Assembly: GCA_946699065.1 (NCBI GenBank)
Contig: CAMPDV010000131.1
Location: 62,001-126,000, forward strand
Reading direction: 5' to 3'
Source of the DNA: Loxodes magnus
Lineage: Eukaryota; Ciliophora; Karyorelictea; Loxodida; Loxodidae
DNA length: 64,000 nt
A model generated the notes under the pieces. It saw nothing but the letters and a program-made list of their open reading frames with translations, did no database searches and was not told the origin of the DNA. This document shows positions 1,628 to 64,000 of this stretch, piece after piece. How positions within the stretch are numbered: the stretch's first letter is position 1; every line of letters begins with the position of its first letter. The position numbers and the translations under genes were made by a program.

Positions 1628-2118
1628 ATGTAAGAACAAAAGGAGTGTTTGTCAGCTTTGTTTTTTGTTAACTTGGATTGAACTTTAAAGAAGTTTGATA
1701 TTACCAAAGAAAAAGCTTAATAACTCATTGAAGACTTATAAAGTATTCAAAGAATGAATTTTGTTGAAAAAATTAAAAATAAAATCTTTAGACTAAAAAT
1801 TTAACTTTCATTAAATGAAATATCAAAAAAGTAGGACTTCCTCTGAGCGTTTTTAATTATGTTCTTTCTTAATCTCAGTCAAATTAATAATAAAATGTCT
1901 AATAAATAAATAAAGAAAATATAAAAGAGCTTAAATAAAATATTTGCCTCTAGTAGAAAAATTAAAATCTAAACTAGTAAAAAATAAATAAAAGTGAAGA
2001 TCTAAATAATTTACAAGAATAAAGTAATTTACAAAATGGAGATAGAAAAGATAAATAATTAAAAGATTAAAAATTATAAGAAGAAATATTCTAGAATATG
2101 AACAATTTTTAAAATCAT
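1628..2118 (+). pseudogene. Zinc-finger gene copy A: truncated and frameshifted N-terminal part
   Basis: This is the 5' part of the same gene as copy D (36301), read with TAA/TAG as Gln. The start ATG at 1628 opens a peptide beginning M-Q-E-Q-K-E-C-L-S-A-L. TGA stands at codon 18 (1679-1681), as in copy D. A one-base deletion near 1832, relative to D, shifts the frame just inside the helix-turn-helix-like segment, and further indels follow. Similarity to D ends near 2118, before the zinc fingers, so no finger is present. Downstream readings around 2085-2260 and 2390-2540 are rich in N, Q, Y and F like the family's C-terminus and could be remnants after an internal deletion, but this is weak. 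The copy is certainly not functional. Confidence 0.8.
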
Positions 2119-3003: not shown

Positions 3004-3189
3004 TCAGGTCATTTCTGACCTTCCAGAAATTGGGCAGAGCCACATATTGGATGTAGTTCTCAATTAGCAATAATCGCGCATCAGCAGAGCTTCACTTGCT
3101 ACGATATTGCCCCTAGCACGAGGATACTCTTTACTAACCTTCTTTAATTTAAATCCTTTTCTTTTTACTTTATTAAGGTTTTATTTCAT
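3004..3189 (-). CDS. Small basic hypothetical protein in a GC-richer island
   Basis: A 61-codon reading runs from an ATG (complement of 3187-3189) to a TGA (complement of 3004-3006) and covers a compact GC-richer patch (about 2995-3145) in very AT-rich DNA. The product starts M-K-Q-N-L-N-K-V-K-R-K and is lysine/arginine-rich at the N-terminus. The second half is mixed and includes one Trp encoded by TGG and two Cys. One TAA near the start and one TAA later are read as Gln. I recognise no family, no signal peptide and no membrane segment. The same patch could instead be a non-coding repeat, since other GC islands here are SINE-like, and I see no second copy in the window. Coding status is inferred only from composition and frame. 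Confidence 0.35.
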
Positions 3190-8487: not shown

Positions 8488-10665
8488 TCAGTGATAGTGA
8501 GACATGTAATAGGGATAATACATATTCTGATGCTAATACCTTAGCTAATTTTAATTATATTGATATTAATTCATATAACTTGAAGGCAAACTTTACTAAA
8601 AATTAGGCTAAAAACTCGGCTATAAACTTGGCTAAAACATTTATCTATTATTTTATAATGGAACATATGATCTATTGGGTTATTGTTAAAAATTAATATA
8701 TCTTATTTAGTTAAATTAAGTTGGCACTCTTTCTTTATTTTAAGTTAGATCAACTACTTTCCTGAACTTTTAAAATCCTATTTCTTGCTAGTTTATTTCT
8801 TTAGGTAAACTTTAATAACTTTATTTGAAAACTACTTTTTTTAATTCTCTTTTTTCTTAAATATTAACTATTTGTTATTTTTCTACTTCATATGGTATGT
8901 AGTTTTTAACCTTTTCTTCATCTTAATTTAAGTCTTCGCTATCTTTATGTTATTTTTTGCTTCCTTGCTTCTTATTTTCTTCTTCTTCAATTTCAATAAT
9001 TTTTGGGGCATTTATTTTGATATTTTCTACTTTTTCTTCTTTTTCCTCTTTTTTATCTTCCTACTTTTTATCTTAAATATCATTTTTTATTTATTCTTAG
9101 AGCTAATTAATTTCTTGTGAATTATTAGTAGGTGTTAATTTATTTTTCTTTGTTGCCAAACCTTCCTCTTCTAAGTTTATTATTTCTAACTTTTTCTATT
9201 CTTTAAACGAATGTCTAGTTAAATGTCTAAGTAAATTTTTTCTCCCAATAAATTACCCTTTACAAACTGAGCATCTTATATTATTAAATTAGGAGCTTGA
9301 ATGTTCCTTTTCGAAATGAGTTTGTAACTTCAAATTTGTTTTAAATAAATTTTCACACTCTTTACATTTATAGACCTCAATATCATCCTTATTGTAAATG
9401 ATGGTACCATATTTTACCGTAGTGTTTTCTCTTTCTAATTCTTGATAAGTTTTGGTTGTTCTAAGTTTGTAATTTTAATTTTTCTTTTCGTGTATTTTTT
9501 GATGTAAAATAAATTACTCTTCTTCTGGATAATTTTTCTCACACTCTACACATTAGTATTTTCTAGTTAAGACATGAAGAGTAGATTCATCGCTTGATTT
9601 TTCTCCATTTCGATTCTTGTCTTATTCTTTTATTGCTTCTCCTTTCATCTCTTGATTCATATCATTATTTTGTGTATTTAAGTATTTTTCTACTTAATTT
9701 AATTAAGAGGGTATTTAAACTTAAGGAAGTTAAAATGATTTTATTTGTTATAGAGTGTATTTTATAATTTATCCTTATTTTTGATGCTCATCTAAATGAG
9801 TGTTATATGAAGAAACATTTTCAAACGGGAGATCTTTGCATAAGGGACAGAAAAGATTAGTTAACTTTTCTTGAGCGTGGCGATCTATGAAATGTTTTGA
9901 AAGTAAGACTCCATCGTTAAAGATTTATTCGCAATATATACAGGCAAATAATTCTTTATTTTCAAACTCTTTAGTTACGACTCCACTTTTAGTTAAGCGA
10001 ATGATTTCTTTATTTTATAATTAAATTTATTCTTAGCTTTAAATTATTTGAGATGAATCATTTTCTTAATTTTAGGCTGTATTTTAAATTTGCTGATGTT
10101 GTTGATCTAAATTAGAAATTATATTTAGCTTTACTTTTTCTGGTAAAATTATTGCTTTCTACTTTATTTCGTTTCTTGGTCTTTTTTTATTACTATATGT
10201 GCTTTCTTATTTTTATTCTACTTTTAAAAATTCTTCGAAGCACTAAAAAATATCTTCTTATATTTTTTAAACTTCCTTCTCCTGGCCTTTTGTAGTTAGT
10301 TATTAAAGATAAATTGCTTCTTAATTATTTTATTGTATAGTATTAATATTTTTAAGTTCTAATATTTTATTAATTTTTTATTCTGTGATCTAACTTTCTT
10401 TTTTTTTAAGTTGCTGTGATTCTAAGAGTATTTAGTTAACTATACTTAGAGGAAGTCCTACTTTTTCGGAAATTTAATACCTAGACTTAGTGTCTTTAAG
10501 TTTTAGAATTTTCTTTTTGATTAGATTAATGAATTCCAGGTTTTAAAGAGCATTAAAATCCTTAATAAGTAATTTCGCCTTTTCCTAATTAATTCCATAT
10601 TCCTATATAGTTCAGTCCATGCTAGTGAAGACTAAAGCCGATATACACTCCTTCGAAGCTGACAT
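8488..10665 (-). CDS. C2H2 zinc-finger / helix-turn-helix protein, copy B (most intact copy)
   Basis: Reading TAA/TAG as Gln, a frame of 726 codons runs from ATG (complement of 10663-10665) to TGA (complement of 8488-8490). The only internal TGA is codon 18 (complement of 10612-10614). I checked the whole frame for TGA. The N-terminus M-S-A-S-K-E-C is followed by a helix-rich part and, near residues 62-81, a helix-turn-helix-like segment (S-R-Y-Q-I-S-E-K-V-G-L-P). Five CxxC...H-x3/4-H fingers follow, at about residues 240-485 as in copy C, with acidic, Lys/Gln-rich linkers. The tail is Q/N/P/Y-rich and ends H-Y-H. The combination suggests a nuclear DNA-binding protein. No transposase, nuclease or polymerase motif is visible. 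It is nearly identical to copy C, but only from about 50 bp upstream to about 40 bp past the stop. Its farther flanks match neither C nor F. Confidence 0.75.
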
Positions 10666-24664: not shown

Positions 24665-26848
24665 ATGTCAGCTTCGTAGGAGTGCATTTCAGCTTTAGTC
24701 TTCACTAGCATGGACTGAACTATATAGGAATATGGAATTAATTAGGAAAAGGCGAAATTACTTACTAGGGACTTTAATGCTCTTTAAAACCTGGAATTCA
24801 TTAATCTAATCAAAAAGAAAATTCTAAAACTTTAAGACACTAAGTCTAGGTATTAAATTTCCGAAAAAGTAGGACTTCCTCTAAGTATAGTTAACTAAAT
24901 ACTTTTAGAATCACAGCAACTTAAAAAAAAAGAAAGTTAGATCACAGAATAAAAAATTAATAAAATATTAGAACTTAAAAATATTAATACTATACAATAA
25001 AATAATTAAGAAGCAAATTATCTTTAATAACTAACTACAAAAGGCCAGGAGAAGGAAGTTTAAAAAATATAAGAAGATATTTTTTAGTGCTTCGAAGAAT
25101 TTTTAAAAGTAGAATAAAAATAAGAAAGCACATATAGTAATAAAAAAAGACCAAGAAATGAAATAAAGTAGAAAGCAATAATTTTACCAGAAAAAGTAAA
25201 GCTAAATATAATTTCTAATTTAGATCAACAACATCAGCAAATTTAAAATACAACCTAAAATTAAGAAAATGATTCGTCTCAAATAATTTAAAAGTAAGAA
25301 TAAATTTAATTATCAAATAAAGAAATAATTGGCTTAACTAAAAGTGGAGTCGTAACTAAAGAGTTTGAAAATAAAGAATTATTTGCCTGTATATATTGCG
25401 AATAAATCTTTAACGATGGAGTTTTACTTTCAAAACATTTCATAGATCGCCACGCTCAAGAAAAGTTAATTAATCTTTTCTGTCCCTTATGCAAAGATCT
25501 CCCGTTTGAAAATGTTTCTTAATATAACACTCATTTAGAGCAGCATCAAAAACAAGGATAAATTATAAAATACACTCTATAACAAATAAAAACATTTTAA
25601 CTTCCTTAAGTTTAAATACCCTCTTAATTAAATTAAGTAGAAAAAAGTTTAAATACACAAAATAATATGAATCAAGAGATGAAAGGAGAAGCAATAAAAG
25701 AATAAGATAAGAATCGAAATGGAGAAAAATCAAGCGATGAATCTACTCTTCATGTCTTAACTAGAAAATACTAATGTGTAGAGTGTGAGAAAAATTATCC
25801 AGAAGAAGAGTAATTTATTTTACATAAAAAAATACACGAAAAGAAAAATTTAAATTACAAACTTAGAACAACCAAAACTTATCAAGAATTAGAAAGAGAA
25901 AACACTACGGTAAAATATGGTACCATCATTTACAATAAGGACGATCTTGAGGTCTATAAATGTAAAGAGTGTGAAAATTTATTTAAAACAAATTTGAAGT
26001 TACAAACTCATTTCGAAAAGGAACATCCAAGCTCCTAATTTAATAATATAAGATGCTCAGTTTGTAAAGGCTAATTTATTGGGAGAAAGAATTGACTTAG
26101 ACATTTAACTAGACATTCGTTTAAAGAATAGAAGAAGTTAGAAATAATAAACTTAGAAGAGGAAGGTTTGGCAACAAAGAAAAATAAATTAACACCTACT
26201 AATAATTCACAAGAAATTAATTAGCTCTAAGAATAAATAAAAAATTATATTTAAGATAAAAAGTAGGAAGATAAAAAAGAGGAAAAAGAAGAAAAAGTAG
26301 AAAATATCAAAATAAATGCCCCAAAAATTATTGAAATTGAAGAAGAAGAAAATAAGAAACAAGGAAGCAAAAAATAACATAAAGATAGCGAAGACTTAAA
26401 TTAAGATGAAGAAAAGGTTAAAAACTACATACCATATGAAGTAGAAAAATAACAAATAGTTAATATTTAAGAAAAAAGAGAATTAAAAGAAGTAGTTTTC
26501 AAATAAAGTTATTAAAGTTATTAAAGTTTACCTAAAGAAATAAACTAGCAAGAAATAGGATTTTAAAAGTTCAGGAAAGTAGTTGATTTAACTTAAAATA
26601 AAGAAAGAGTGGCAACTTAATTTAACTAAATAAGATATATTAATTTTTAACAATAACCCAATAGATCATATGTTCCATTATAAAATAGTAGATAAATGTT
26701 TTAGCCAAGTTTATAGCCGAGTTTTTAGCCTAATTTTTAGTAAAGTTTGCCTTCAAGTTATATGAACTAATATCAATATAATTAAAATTAGCCAAGGTAT
26801 TAGCATCAGAATATGTATTATCCCTATTACATGTCTCACTATCACTGA
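24665..26848 (+). pseudogene. C2H2 zinc-finger / helix-turn-helix protein, copy C, two internal TGA
   Basis: A 728-codon frame from ATG 24665 to TGA 26846-26848, TAA/TAG read as Gln. The helix-turn-helix-like segment is at about residues 62-81. Finger 1 has C242, C245, H258 and H263; finger 2 has C273, C276, H290 and H294. Fingers 3, 4 and 5 start at C371, C433 and about C464. The linkers are acidic (D-E-S-T, E-E-E-E-N-K-K) and the tail is Q/P/Y-rich, ending Y-Y-M-S-H-Y-H. TGA at codon 18 (24716-24718) is shared with A, B, D and F. TGA at codon 477 (26093-26095) is private to C: copies B and F have TTA (Leu) there, inside finger 5, so it is a true nonsense change. The gene sits between two opposed alpha elements about 6.7 kb apart. 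Without translation through TGA it is not functional. Confidence 0.75.
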
Positions 26849-36300: not shown

Positions 36301-38517
36301 ATGTAAGAACAAAAGGAGTGCTTGTCAGCTTTGTTTTTTGTTAACTTGGATTGAACTTTAAAGAAGTTTGATATTACCAAAGAAAAAGCTTAATAACTCA
36401 TTGAAGATTTATAAAGTATTCAAAGAATGGAGTTCGTTGAAAAAATTAAAAATAAAATCCTAATATTAAAAAATTAACTTTCAATAAATGAAATATCAAT
36501 AAAAGTAGGACTTCCTATGAGCGTTGTTAATTATGTTCTTTCTCAATCTCAGTCAAATTAATATGTCTAATAAAGCAATCAAGAAAATATTTAACTAAAA
36601 GAGTTTAAATAAAATATTTGCCTCTAGTAAAAAAATTAAAACCTAAACTAATAGAAAATAAATAAAAGAGAAAAGATAAATAATTTGCAAGACTAAAGTA
36701 ATTTACAAAATGGAGATAGAAAAGATTAACAATTAAAAGATTAAGAAATACAAGAAGAAATATTCTAGTAAATTGAATAATTTTTAAAAGAGCAAGGGAA
36801 AAAATAAGATACTCAAAGCACTAAAAAAAGATAAAGAAAAGAAGAAAAAAAGAAAATTATAATACTTCCATAATAAATAAATCTAAATAAAATTATCTTA
36901 TAAAGTTAAAATTTAAATAAAAAATCAGCAAACTAAGAAAAGTAAGTCCAAATCAATGAATAAAAAGAAACAGATTAGAAAGAACTTAATGAAATATAAT
37001 CTTTAAATGCTAAAGAAATAATAGCAGATGAATAAGAGGATATTCAATTAGTTTAGAGTGGAATTGTCATAAAAGATTAAAACTAAAATAAAGTTTATGT
37101 GTGCATATTTTGTGATAAAAAATTCAAAGAAGAATCTGATCTCTCATAACATTTGATTGAGTGGCATACTTAAGCAAAAGTGATAAAGTTATTTTGTCCC
37201 TTATGTATTAATCTTATATTTGAAGATATAGAATCTTATAAAAATCATTTAGATAATCATAAGAAATAAGGAGAAACTATAAAATATACTATACAGCAAA
37301 TAAAAGAATTCTAATTCTTTTAAACTAAAAGAACTTATTAGTAGGTTATTGAAATAGAATAATAACCACCAAAAGTTAAATTTTATACAAATCTATAAGG
37401 AATGTTATTAGTTGATAAACTATTTGGAAAACATGTAAATGAAGAATATTCTAGTGACGAATCTACTCTCTATATAGAAACTAAAAAATAAAAGCAAACG
37501 GATAGTGAAAATGTATATGATAAGGATAAAGACCAAGAAGCTATTTTAAACTAAAATAAAAGAAAAAGCTATAAAACTAGAACTAGCAAAACCTTTAAAG
37601 AGTTATAAAGAGAAAATAGTACATTAAAATATGGAAATATCATTTATGATAAGGATGATAACATTTTATATCAGTGTAAAGAATGCAAAGATCTATTTTC
37701 AAGAAGCTTAAGATTATAAAAGCATTTTTAAATGAGTCATCCTAAAGCTAAATTAAATGAGATTATATGCTAGGTTTGTGAAAGCTCTTTTAGTAAGAGA
37801 AAAAAATTTATTATGCATTTAACAAAGCATTAAGTTAGAGAATCAAATAAAAAATAATTTAAAGAAGACATAGAAACAAATAATAGCTAAAGTCTAAAGA
37901 AACCAAGTTAATGAAAGAATCAGCAAAATTAAGATTTAAAAAAATAAACTTATGAAATAGAAAATTTCATGAATAATAGTCAAGTAGAGGAAAATTTAGA
38001 ATTAAAAAAGTAAAAATAAATTTTTGAAAAGATTCATAACGAAGATATTAATTAAAATGAGAGAAACTCGAAAAAATTAATTTCTAAATAAATTTAAAAG
38101 GTATAAAATATTAATGTATAAAAGAAAAAAGAAGTATAAGATATATCATTCAAATAGAACCATTTTGAGTAAAAATTAAATTAAAAATCAAAACGTAAAT
38201 AGAGAGAAGTTATTGATTTGAGCAATGCTTATTAAACTATAACAAATTATGATTAATAGGGGAGTTATCCTAGCTTTTAAACTTTAAATTATAGTTAGTT
38301 CATTCCAGTATAAAATAATAGATAAACATTGCTTCCAAATATAGGGAATTTATCTCAGCAAAACTATCTTAATGGATCATTACAGTGGCAGAATATGTAT
38401 AATCCTTATATGCCTTATCACTAACGAATTTCTTTACATTTCTATAATTTAAAATATTAATTAAAATTAATAAACTTAAAGAAAAATATTAAGTCTCTTT
38501 TTTATTTAATTGATTGA
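36301..38517 (+). CDS. C2H2 zinc-finger / helix-turn-helix protein, copy D
   Basis: ATG 36301 begins M-Q-E-Q-K-E-C-L-S-A-L-F-F-V-N-L-D, with TGA at codon 18 (36352-36354). The helix-turn-helix-like segment (N-E-I-S-I-K-V-G-L-P-M-S-V-V) and fingers typified by C-I-F-C...H-L-I-E-W-H, F-C-P-L-C...H-L-D-N-H, C-K-E-C...H-F-Q-M-S-H and C-Q-V-C...H-L-T-K-H match the other copies. The finger 3 region has lost its cysteines (reads T-K-K-Q-K-Q-T-D). A second TGA is codon 538 (37912-37914), in the low-complexity part after the fingers. The family's C-terminal Y-M-P-Y-H is present and is followed by TAA (38422-38424), exactly where B and C have TGA. Reading that TAA as Gln extends the frame to TGA 38515-38517. 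Trp is encoded by TGG at two other places. Confidence 0.7.
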
Positions 38518-50100: not shown

Positions 50101-52206
50101 TTATTGGTAGTAAGGCATATAATAAGGATAATACATGTTCTAATACTATTGCCTTGAAATGTATTGGTTATTATAAATTTAGTTCATCATGCTTTGCTAA
50201 ATCATCTAACTAGTATTTTAAACTGGAAGATATGGCTTATTATTTAAAATTTCAAAGTTCATTTGTTATGTTTACTAAACTTAATTTGGTATACTTTATT
50301 AAGGTGTAGTTAAGCCATTTATTTTTCTAAATTTTCTAAAACCTTGCTCTTAATAATTTGTTTCCTAAGGTTTATTAAAGACATTTTACCTTAAATTTAT
50401 TTCTTAAGGTTATATTCTTTATTATATTTTATCTTCTTATTCTTTTTAAACTTATTGCTGCAAAAGATTTTTTATTTTTTTCTCATCTTAATTCAAATCT
50501 TCACTATCTCTTTCCTATTTCTTACTTATTTATTGTTTACTCTTTTCAATTAATGTTTATTTTGGAATTTCTTATACTTCAATTTTTTTTCCTTCTTCTT
50601 TTCTATTTTATTCTTAAATGAAACTAACTAACTTTTCTGTCTGCTAAATTATTTAGTTCTTCTTATTAGCGTTTTCTATATTAAGTTCTGTTTTTGCTTT
50701 TATTTCTTCTTCCTTATTAATATTTGCTTCTTAATTTTATTATTTAAACTGATGTCTCTCTAGGTGCTTAAGTAAGTATTATCTCTTATCAAACTGACTT
50801 TCGCAAACTGAGCATTTAATAACATTTAGCTAAGAACTAAGATGTTTTTTTTCGAAATGAAGCTATAGCTTTATTTTTGTATTAAACAAACTTTCACATT
50901 CTTTACACTTGTAAAAAATATTCTCACTCTTGGTTCAAATAATAGTTCCATGTTATATTTTATTATTTTCTTATTCTAAGTCTTTTATGTTCTTGTTAGT
51001 TTTTAGTAAATTTTAGGCTTCATTTTCATGTCTCTTTTAATGTAAAATTAAATCACTTTCTTTACTAAAGTTTTTCTCACACTCTTCACATTAGTATTTT
51101 CTAGTTTCTATTGTAAGAAAAGATTCATCACTAGAATACTATTCTTTTATATGTTTTCCAAATATTTTTTATTTCCTTTATTATCCTACAAGTTTTATAT
51201 AATTAACTTTATCTACTTGTTTATCAAGCTCTATCAACTATTAAGCTACTTTCTCAGTTCTAAGAATTTAGAATATTTTTATTTGCTTCAAAGTGTATTT
51301 TATGGAATCTCCTTATTTTTAATGCTGGCCTAAATGGCAGTTATAGGAAGAAATATCTTCAAAGATAAGATCTTAACATAGAGGACAAAAGAGGCAGATC
51401 TTCTTTTCGTTAGCATGTTAATTAGTGAAATGATTAGAAAGTAGTGCTTCTTACCCAAAACTCTGCTCGCAATATAAGCATATGAAAACTTCTGTTTATT
51501 TTGGTCCTTAAACTACAACCCCAGCTTAAGTTAATCGATGTATTTGCTGATTCTATAAGCAAATAGTTTCTAATATCGAATTTGATGTTTGCTTTTAATT
51601 AAATTCTAAATTGATAGATTATTAAGAATTGAGTTGATTTTAATTTATTTAACTAATAGATAAAATTTAATGATTTTATATTGGTGAAGCTAATGAAGGG
51701 TTATTTTATAGACTGATTTATTCTGGTAAAATAACTATTTTATTAATTTATTATTTTCTAGTTTTTAAGCTTTCTTAGTTATCTTAATTTTCTTGGGGTC
51801 TTAAAAATAGTTCATATTACTAGAAGATATCTTGCTGTATTTGTTAAGCTTTTATTTATTTTAGATATGAGTTATTTTATTATTTAGAGGTATTATTTTA
51901 GAGTTCTATTATTTTATTATTTTCTTAAGGATTATTCTAAGTTACTTCTTGCTATTATGCTTCGATAAGTATTTAATTAACTATGCTTAGTGGAATTCCT
52001 ATTTTTTCAGATATTAAGTACCTTGGCTAAGTGTCTTTTAGCTTTCAAACTTTCCTCTTTATTTTATCTATAAAATCCAGGTTCTGAATACCTTTAAGAT
52101 TACGAATTAGTGAAATGGCTTTCTCTTTAGTAATTCCATGTTCCTATGAAGTCCAATCTAGATCCGCAAAGATTAAAGCAGACAAGCAGTCCTTTTATAA
52201 TGACAT
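50101..52206 (-). CDS. C2H2 zinc-finger / helix-turn-helix protein, copy E (codon 18 is Trp)
   Basis: ATG is the complement of 52204-52206; the product starts M-S-L-Q-K-D-C-L-S-A-L-I-F-A-D-L-D-W-T. Codon 18 is TGG (complement of 52153-52155), unlike every other copy. The helix-turn-helix-like segment (R-Y-L-I-S-E-K-I-G-I-P-L-S-I-V) and five fingers are present: C-L-Y-C...H-F-T-N-Q-H, F-C-P-L-C...H-L-G-Q-H, C-E-E-C...H-Q-K-R-H, C-K-E-C...H-F-E-K-K-H, C-S-V-C...H-L-E-R-H. The tail is Q/N-rich and ends Y-Y-M-P-Y-Y-Q. One TGA, codon 54 (complement of 52045-52047), falls where relatives have CTA (Leu) or similar. The family's usual end is TAA here (complement of 50101-50103), 701 codons from the start. 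It is a diverged third subfamily, flanked by opposed beta elements about 7.2 kb apart. Confidence 0.75.
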
Positions 52207-62460: not shown

Positions 62461-64000
62461 ATGTCAGCTTCGTAGGAGTGCATGTCAGCTTTAGTCTTCA
62501 CTAGCATGGACTGAACTATATAGGAATATGGAATTAATCAGGAAAAAGCGAAACTACTTATTAAGGATTTTAATGCTCTTTAAAACCTGGAATTCGTTAA
62601 TCTAATCAAAAAGAAAATTCTAAAACTTAAAGACACTAAGTCTAGGTATTAAATTTCCGAAAAAGTAGGACTTTCTCTAAGTATAGTTAACTAAATACTT
62701 TTAGAATCACAGCAACTTTAAAAAGAAGAAAGTTAGATCACAGAATAAAAAAATAATTAAGAAGCAAATTATCTTTAATAATTAGCTACAAAAAACCAGG
62801 AAAAGGAAGTTTAAAATATATAAGAAGATATTTTTTAGTGCTTCGAAGAATTTTTAAAAGTAGAATAAAAATAAGAAAGTACATATAGTAATAAAAAAAG
62901 ACCAAGAAATGAAATATAGTAGAAAGCAATAATTTTACCAGAAAAAGTAAAGCTAAATATAATTTCTAATTTAAATCAACAACATCAGCAAATTTAAAAT
63001 ACAACTTAAAATTAAGAAAATGATTCATATCAAATAATTGAAAGCTAAGAATAAATTTAATTATAAAATTAATTATAAAATAAAGAAATAATTCATTTAA
63101 ACAAAAGTGGAATCGTAACTAAAGAGCCTGAAAATAAAGAATTATTTGCCTGTATATATTGCGAATAAATCTTTAACGATGGAGTCTTACTTTCAAAACA
63201 TTTCATAGATTGACACACTCAAGAAAAATAAATTAATCTTTTCTGTCCCTTATGCAAAGGTCTCCCGTTTGAAAATGTTTTTACATATAACACTCATTTA
63301 GATGAGCATCAAAAACAAGGATAAATTATAAAATACACTTTATAACAAATAAAAACATTTTAGCTTCTTTAAGCTTAAATACCATCTTAATTAAATTAAG
63401 TAAATAAAAGTTTAAATACACAAAATAAGGATATGAATCAAGAGATGAAAGGAGAAACAATAAAAGAATAAGACAAGGATCGAAATGTAGAAAAATCAAG
63501 TGATGAATCTACTCTTCATGTCTTAACTAGAAAGTACTAATGTGTAGAGTGTGAGAAAAATTTTCCTGAAGAAGAGTAATTTATTTTACATCAAAAAATA
63601 CACGAAAAAAAAATTTAAACTACAAGCTTAGAACAACCGAAACTTATTAAGAGTTAGAAAGATAAAACACTACGGTAAAATATGGTACCATCATTTACAA
63701 TAAGAACAACAGCGCAGTTTATAAATGTAAAGAGTGTGAAAGCTTATTTAAAACAAATTTGAAGTTACAAAATCATTTCGAAAAGGAACATCCAAACTCC
63801 TAATTTAATAATATAAGATGCTCAGTTTGTAACGGCTAATTTATTGGGAGAAAGAATTTACTTAGGCACTTAACTGGACATTCGATTAAAGAATAGAAAA
63901 AGTTAGAAATAATAAACTTAGAAGAGGAAAATTAAACAATAAAGAAAAATAAGATAACACCTTCTAATAATTCACAAGAGCTTAATTAACTATAAGAATA
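62461..64000 (+). pseudogene. Zinc-finger gene copy F, partial at the window edge, broken
   Basis: ATG 62461 begins M-S-A-S-Q-E-C-M-S-A-L, nearly the same as copies B and C. Codon 18 is TGA (62512-62514). An in-frame deletion near 62750 removes a Q/N-rich stretch present in C. A private TGA at codon 251 (63211-63213) replaces the Arg before the last His of finger 1. A one-base deletion in an A run near 63605, relative to C, shifts the frame after finger 3. Fingers 4 and 5 are then still recognisable in the shifted frame (C-K-E-C near 63727; finger 5 near 63820, with Leu codons where C has TGA). The window ends before the C-terminus. It is a decayed copy that shares over 4 kb of upstream sequence with C. 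Confidence 0.75.

Follow-up and report, generated by a model that had tools for sequence, protein, structure and literature searches.

A conserved tryptophan codon written as TGA or TGG in a zinc-finger gene family of Loxodes magnus, and evidence that UAA very probably also ends its genes

What does an in-frame TGA mean when it recurs at the same early codon of related, otherwise open genes? Six copies of a zinc-finger gene, here called A to F, lie in the analysed stretch of 64,000 bases of the Loxodes magnus genome (the window), and codon 18 is TGA in five of them and TGG in the sixth. This pattern, which the original prediction had pointed out, was confirmed position by position from the sequence: TGA occupies 1679-1681 (+) in copy A, 10612-10614 (-) in B, 24716-24718 (+) in C, 36352-36354 (+) in D and 62512-62514 (+) in F, and TGG occupies 52153-52155 (-) in E. 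For copy B, the alignment of copies and a census of the family were used in addition to the sequence itself. In B, as had been claimed, codon 18 is the only internal TGA among 725 codons, codon 726 being the terminal TGA (8488-8490). Over the stretches that could be matched, one additional internal TGA was found in each of A (codon 73), C (codon 477), D (codon 538) and F (codon 251), and two in E (codons 54 and 424).

We conclude, with a probability of roughly 95%, that codon 18 is a conserved tryptophan codon, and that the TGA of B, C, D and F is read as Trp like the TGG of E. TGA and TGG are synonymous at this codon because UGA means Trp inside reading frames under the code of this species, NCBI table 27. 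In the 2024 L. magnus genome paper, UAA and UAG are assigned to Gln and UGA to Trp or stop, UGA is read as Trp when the poly(A) tail is sufficiently distant downstream and as stop otherwise, and it is described as the only stop codon; the same paper reports that UGA and UAA are depleted just upstream of the stop, and that 3'-UTRs average 53 bases (PMC11441545). According to that paper, Parduczia and Loxodes share this karyorelict code, with UAA/UAG as Gln, UGA as Trp or stop, and depletion of UGA and UAA before the stop (PMC11441545). UGA would then be decoded as Trp within the frame and act as a stop only near the 3' end of the mRNA, and codon 18 would drift between the synonymous TGA and TGG. 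The conclusion draws on observed codons, open frames, purifying selection, repeated changes between TGA and TGG, and other genes in which TGA stands at a Trp position; the code itself comes from the literature, and that the protein is produced we infer. The finding at codon 18 is real, and it is explained by an already known genetic code; any novelty lies at most in the evidence for termination at UAA. The premise that TGA must be nonsense unless something special occurs does not apply, as the known ambiguous code of L. magnus reads internal UGA as Trp.

Copy B spans 8488-10665 on the minus strand. Copy C is found at 24665-26848 (+), with 727 codons and a terminal TGA at 26846-26848, while copies D (36301-38424, +; 707 codons) and E (50101-52206, -; 701 codons) carry TAA at the homologous terminus, at 38422-38424 and 50101-50103, respectively. 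Copy A consists of just the 5' part of a D-type gene (1628-1888, +), with about 87 codons matched and no further family match downstream of it. Copy F is a B-type gene (62461-64000, +) that extends beyond the end of the window and changes frame near codon 395, in the region of about 63600-63640. Other B-type copies also match in two pieces (C131:139593-141709, C131:340386-342556, and copies on C1034 and C1510). These look as if they had undergone a frame change in mid-gene, for which decay, assembly error, an intron or frameshifting are all possible.

Window copies B to E share Cys2-His2 fingers that exceed Pfam cut-offs for the C2H2 families. PF13894 scored 39.7, 39.8, 32.3 and 35.9 bits in B, C, D and E (cut-off 27 bits), with two, two, two and three stretches passing individually, and PF05605 reached its cut-off in all of these copies except E (26.1 vs 27.5 bits). 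Unlike the C2H2 part, the first 90 residues, which contain Trp 18, fall outside any match to a listed Pfam family; Trp 18 itself is invariant across window copies B to F. Going by its motifs, the protein may be a DNA-binding regulator.

The assembly searched for further copies comprises 705,730,643 bases in 7843 contigs; it had been thought of as germline, and is instead probably macronuclear (somatic). Two protein searches, in which the best 62 of 441 and the best 63 of 279 candidate places were scored, gave a family of at least 77 copies, and the true number may exceed this count. In many of the matches listed, the frame is open for ∼670-770 codons and contains few TGA or none. The genes form a large array of mixed orientation: 39 places are listed on C131, from 1876 to 531292, and further family contigs are C297, C358, C489, C878, C1450, C1510, C3035 and C3116. 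On C131 from 270 kb, pairs of D (+) and E (-) copies recur with a spacing of 5.0-5.9 kb, some with an intervening B copy.

Codon 18 was readable in 77 copies, corresponding to 62 distinct start sequences; the census does not include L035-L038 and L052, which have no match over codon 18, or the copies on C1034 and at C1510:104785-106525. TGA was found in 51 copies, TGG in 23, and TTT, TGC and TAA in one each, and the three copies with neither Trp codon count against a conserved Trp. In the 29 different full-length copies the codon is TGA in 21, TGG in seven and TTT in one. Internal TGA occurs in seven columns of these copies, and outside codon 18 none holds more than four: a second Trp column has four TGA and two TGG. 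Against the Trp reading, the other five have one to four TGA each and no TGG in any copy. An eighth TGA column is, judged by its place, the stop of L054-L056. The recurrence of TGA at codon 18 (21 of 29, against at most four at any other internal column) is more than chance.

In a tree calculated from the DNA of codons 1-60 with codon 18 omitted, at least five changes between TGA and TGG are needed, and TGA-bearing and TGG-bearing copies are intermixed across it; the tree was made by a quick method with no bootstrap, has 26 of 59 inner branches open, and leaves aside L019 and L022 (window copies B and C) as well as L027, which has a 5' frame change. L095 (TGG) and L096 (TGA) differ at codon 18 but share all of the remaining 177 bases up to codon 60. 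A conserved Trp that flips between TGA and TGG across a family numbering at least 77 copies offers a clean natural demonstration of sense UGA.

Selection was estimated by the Nei-Gojobori method from 190 non-independent pairs among 20 hand-chosen copies. When the pairs were grouped by identity into five classes, pooled dN/dS over columns 19-760 was 0.45, 0.39, 0.34, 0.35 and 0.47; no pooled class past codon 18 approaches 1, and the ∼700 codons beyond codon 18 are under purifying selection. Codons 1-17, where there are few sites, gave 0.27, 0.63, 0.17 and 0.11 in the four computable classes. Some single comparisons over short stretches came near 1, with 1.04 from eight differences in codons 1-17 of L028/L029, and 0.92 in columns 19-60 alone of E and L054. 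Neutral decay, for which dN/dS had been suggested as a test, is refuted by the pooled values of 0.34-0.47 after codon 18.

These values also bear on the idea, raised in the original prediction, that an old nonsense mutation spread by duplication, leaving five pseudogenes and a copy E that reverted or retained Trp. Broken copies do exist, as the fragment A and the frame change in F demonstrate, and TGG turns into TGA easily in an AT-biased genome. However, the TGA copies retain ∼700 more codons under purifying selection, and dN/dS is low even where both members of a pair carry TGA (0.39 for L019/L022, 0.51 for L028/L029, 0.25 for L039/L040 and 0.18 for L042/L043; the near-identical L049/L050, with 0.98 from 10 differences, are too close to count). 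The intermixing of TGA and TGG copies on the tree is likewise at odds with a single old lesion. Given dN/dS far below 1, at least five TGA/TGG changes and TGA at Trp positions of actin, described below, nonsense spread by duplication is extremely improbable.

Actin genes provide an unrelated comparison. Each near-full-model actin match has at least five in-frame TAA or TAG codons, and some have in-frame TGA. Seven loci were fetched and five divergent actins used, L062 and L063 having been dropped by a similarity filter. Five of the nine internal TGA in these genes align to Trp of the reference actin; the other four align to F, F, Q and G, so that a conserved Trp cannot be assumed at each internal TGA. 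TGA is also the last codon of all five genes, at the usual C-terminus, and one codon thus serves as sense within these genes and as stop where they end. Decoding of internal UGA as Trp, a feature of table 27, was found in both the codon-18 census and the actins. The sense use of UAA and UAG as Gln was found in the actins and in the zinc-finger family, where each of the 12 columns that hold Gln in all copies present (at least 24 of the 29) uses more than one of TAA, TAG, CAA and CAG. Full-length actin matches number 43, with near-equal scores (450-460 bits) and in both orientations, many of them on a few shared contigs (C266, C437, C524, C707, C711, C1162, C1812 and others). A Tetrahymena-type code, with TGA as the sole and unambiguous stop, was also considered, and is ruled out by the internal TGA of actin together with the zinc-finger family data.

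It had also been suggested that codon 18 is a programmed readthrough site or an early regulatory stop that limits expression. In its favour, TGA is commoner than TGG at this codon, and the codon lies near the gene start. Against this, 23 of the 77 copies have TGG at the site, internal TGA is found at Trp positions of unrelated genes, and the published L. magnus code already accounts for the TGA. The low dN/dS after codon 18, the interchange of TGA and TGG and the actin TGA at Trp give a regulatory stop no support, and we consider it very improbable. Translation of TGA as Trp, the remaining suggestion, is the one borne out by the code, the census, the switches on the tree, purifying selection and the actin Trp positions.

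The other end of the genes appears to differ from what the published code leads one to expect. The homologous C-terminal codon, read in 45 distinct ends, is TAA in 31, TGA in 14 and never anything else, as counted from the aligned column whatever codon stood there. Counted by copy, 72 readable ends divide into 50 TAA and 22 TGA, with at least three changes of state on the tree (ends are missing for A, L035-L038, L041, L052, L102, L103, L104 and the C1034 and C1510 copies). TGA ends the B-type genes, L049/L050 and L054-L056; TAA stands at this position in the D-type and E-type genes, L039/L040, L042-L048, L107 and L117. TAA stands at a homologous stop where relatives have TGA in window copies D (38422-38424, +) and E (50101-50103, -) and in L117, and the copy with the L117 end is sister of L049/L050, which have TGA.

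Judging from these aligned ends together with the evidence below, UAA is very probably also a position-dependent stop in L. magnus. We hold it to be highly likely that both UGA (Trp or stop) and UAA (Gln or stop), but not UAG, are dual codons resolved by position. In this extension, drawn from the zinc-finger family, UAA would encode Gln within a reading frame and terminate it at the 3' end; about two-thirds of the copies with readable ends (50 of 72) would terminate at UAA and the remainder at UGA, and genes would drift between the two kinds of end. If so, the published code with its single stop, and gene models based on it, would put the wrong end on a minority of genes and on most zinc-finger copies.

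The use of Gln codons near the ends is consistent with a stop function of UAA. Among the Gln codons of 11 hand-chosen representatives, TAA makes up 3 of the 33 that fall within the final 20 codons, compared with 637 of the 1017 that lie more than 40 codons upstream (Fisher p = 4e-10, a value that, like the next, ignores relatedness); in the six representatives that end in TAA, the corresponding figures are 0 of 18 and 365 of 570 (p = 2e-8). TAG shows no such depletion: it accounts for 16 of the 33 Gln codons close to the end and for 163 of the 1017 further upstream. Depletion of UAA before a stop UGA, reported in the genome paper (PMC11441545), fits UAA as a stop. Past the end, G+C falls from 0.22-0.29 to 0.09-0.18 in the TAA and TGA classes alike.

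Alternatively, TAA could always be Gln, with the TAA-ended copies simply continuing to the next in-frame TGA. The published table 27 indeed has UGA as the sole stop (PMC11441545), and at some loci a TGA follows closely: 3 codons past TAA in the D-type loci L130-L134, which could run on slightly, 5 codons past it in the H3-like gene L164, and 14 in L045. The distance to the next in-frame TGA is 14-107 codons in the six TAA-ended representatives and 15-47 in those that end in TGA; past the TAA of copy D it is 31 codons, and past that of E 101. Since 3'-UTRs of L. magnus average 53 bases (PMC11441545), a stop hundreds of bases downstream is unlikely. Moreover, a sense TAA would be expected to interchange with TAG, CAA or CAG, as Gln codons do in the 12 all-Gln columns, and none of these appears in the terminal column of the 45 distinct ends, and the lack of TAA among the last Gln codons of the TAA-ended representatives points the same way. 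Among the 14 copies of the E clade, gaps follow the TAA, of one base shortly past it in three copies, and of 2 and 9 bases between groups, so that the frame is lost downstream; L051 has a one-base gap upstream of TAA too. The H3-like gene L165 has no in-frame TGA past TAA in the remainder of its fetched 711 bases. Read-on through a TAA that always means Gln is thus unlikely, and termination at UAA remains the preferred reading of these ends.

Ends elsewhere in the genome were examined in histone, histone-like and E2 (ubiquitin-conjugating enzyme) genes, for which 40 pieces were fetched; eight genes needed a second piece, and L171 and L172 reach no end. Taking the end as the first TGA or TAA past the conserved part, with TAG unscored, 28 of 30 readable ends are TGA and two are TAA. 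UGA as a stop at gene ends, as in table 27, is supported by these 28 ends and by the five actins. Both TAA-ended genes (L164 and L165) are H3-like, the histone types being assigned by motifs we take to be typical; they end in LTDM-TAA where a paralogue has LTDV-TGA, and similarity drops off beyond the LTDM-TAA. Across the genome, UAA thus appears to end a minority of genes, while being frequent at the ends of the zinc-finger family. UGA was not found to be the only stop, as TAA occupies 31 of 45 zinc-finger and 2 of 11 H3-type ends, in alignments alone. As a separate observation, 32 E2 matches lie head to tail at C32:80272-102824, repeating every 716 bases. All but the last extend over the full model, score equally and contain two internal TGA; the last is partial and also has two.

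The karyorelict code as published has UGA as its sole stop (PMC11441545), whereas the zinc-finger family and two H3-like genes are apparently ended by UAA as well. In Condylostoma magnum, UAA and UGA are both sense and stop codons, separated by nearness to the transcript end (PMC4967479). UAG is also a stop there, in contrast to the Loxodes zinc-finger genes, in which TAG ends 0 of 45 and is not depleted near the end; the use of all three codons as stops near the end was accordingly not found in these 45 distinct ends. Blastocrithidia resembles the code proposed here for L. magnus in a dual-meaning UAA and in UGA as Trp (PMC12153298), but is a trypanosomatid in which UAR is Glu and not Gln. 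In the zinc-finger family, termination at UGA and at UAA can be compared over many copies, UAG serving as an internal control; such a comparison could reveal which codons are still recognised as stops by a position-dependent ribosome, and tell if UGA-only gene models need correcting. The Condylostoma magnum code carries table number 28. Seah et al. (2022) reportedly noted possible use of stop-UAA in a small minority of karyorelict transcripts. A literature search for stop-UAA did not find the term in the papers listed.

Some observations concern the surroundings of the genes. No transposase, reverse transcriptase or viral domain that would mark a mobile-element carrier was found by Pfam in six frames of three 5-kb stretches (15 of the 64 kb) or in three long open reading frames, and a BED finger gave a single match, under its cut-off, in the six-frame scan of the same 15 kb. 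A scan of the window for tRNA genes found none. Inside the array, a U4 spliceosomal RNA gene was detected at window positions 3008-3125 on the minus strand, with a score of 93.8 bits.
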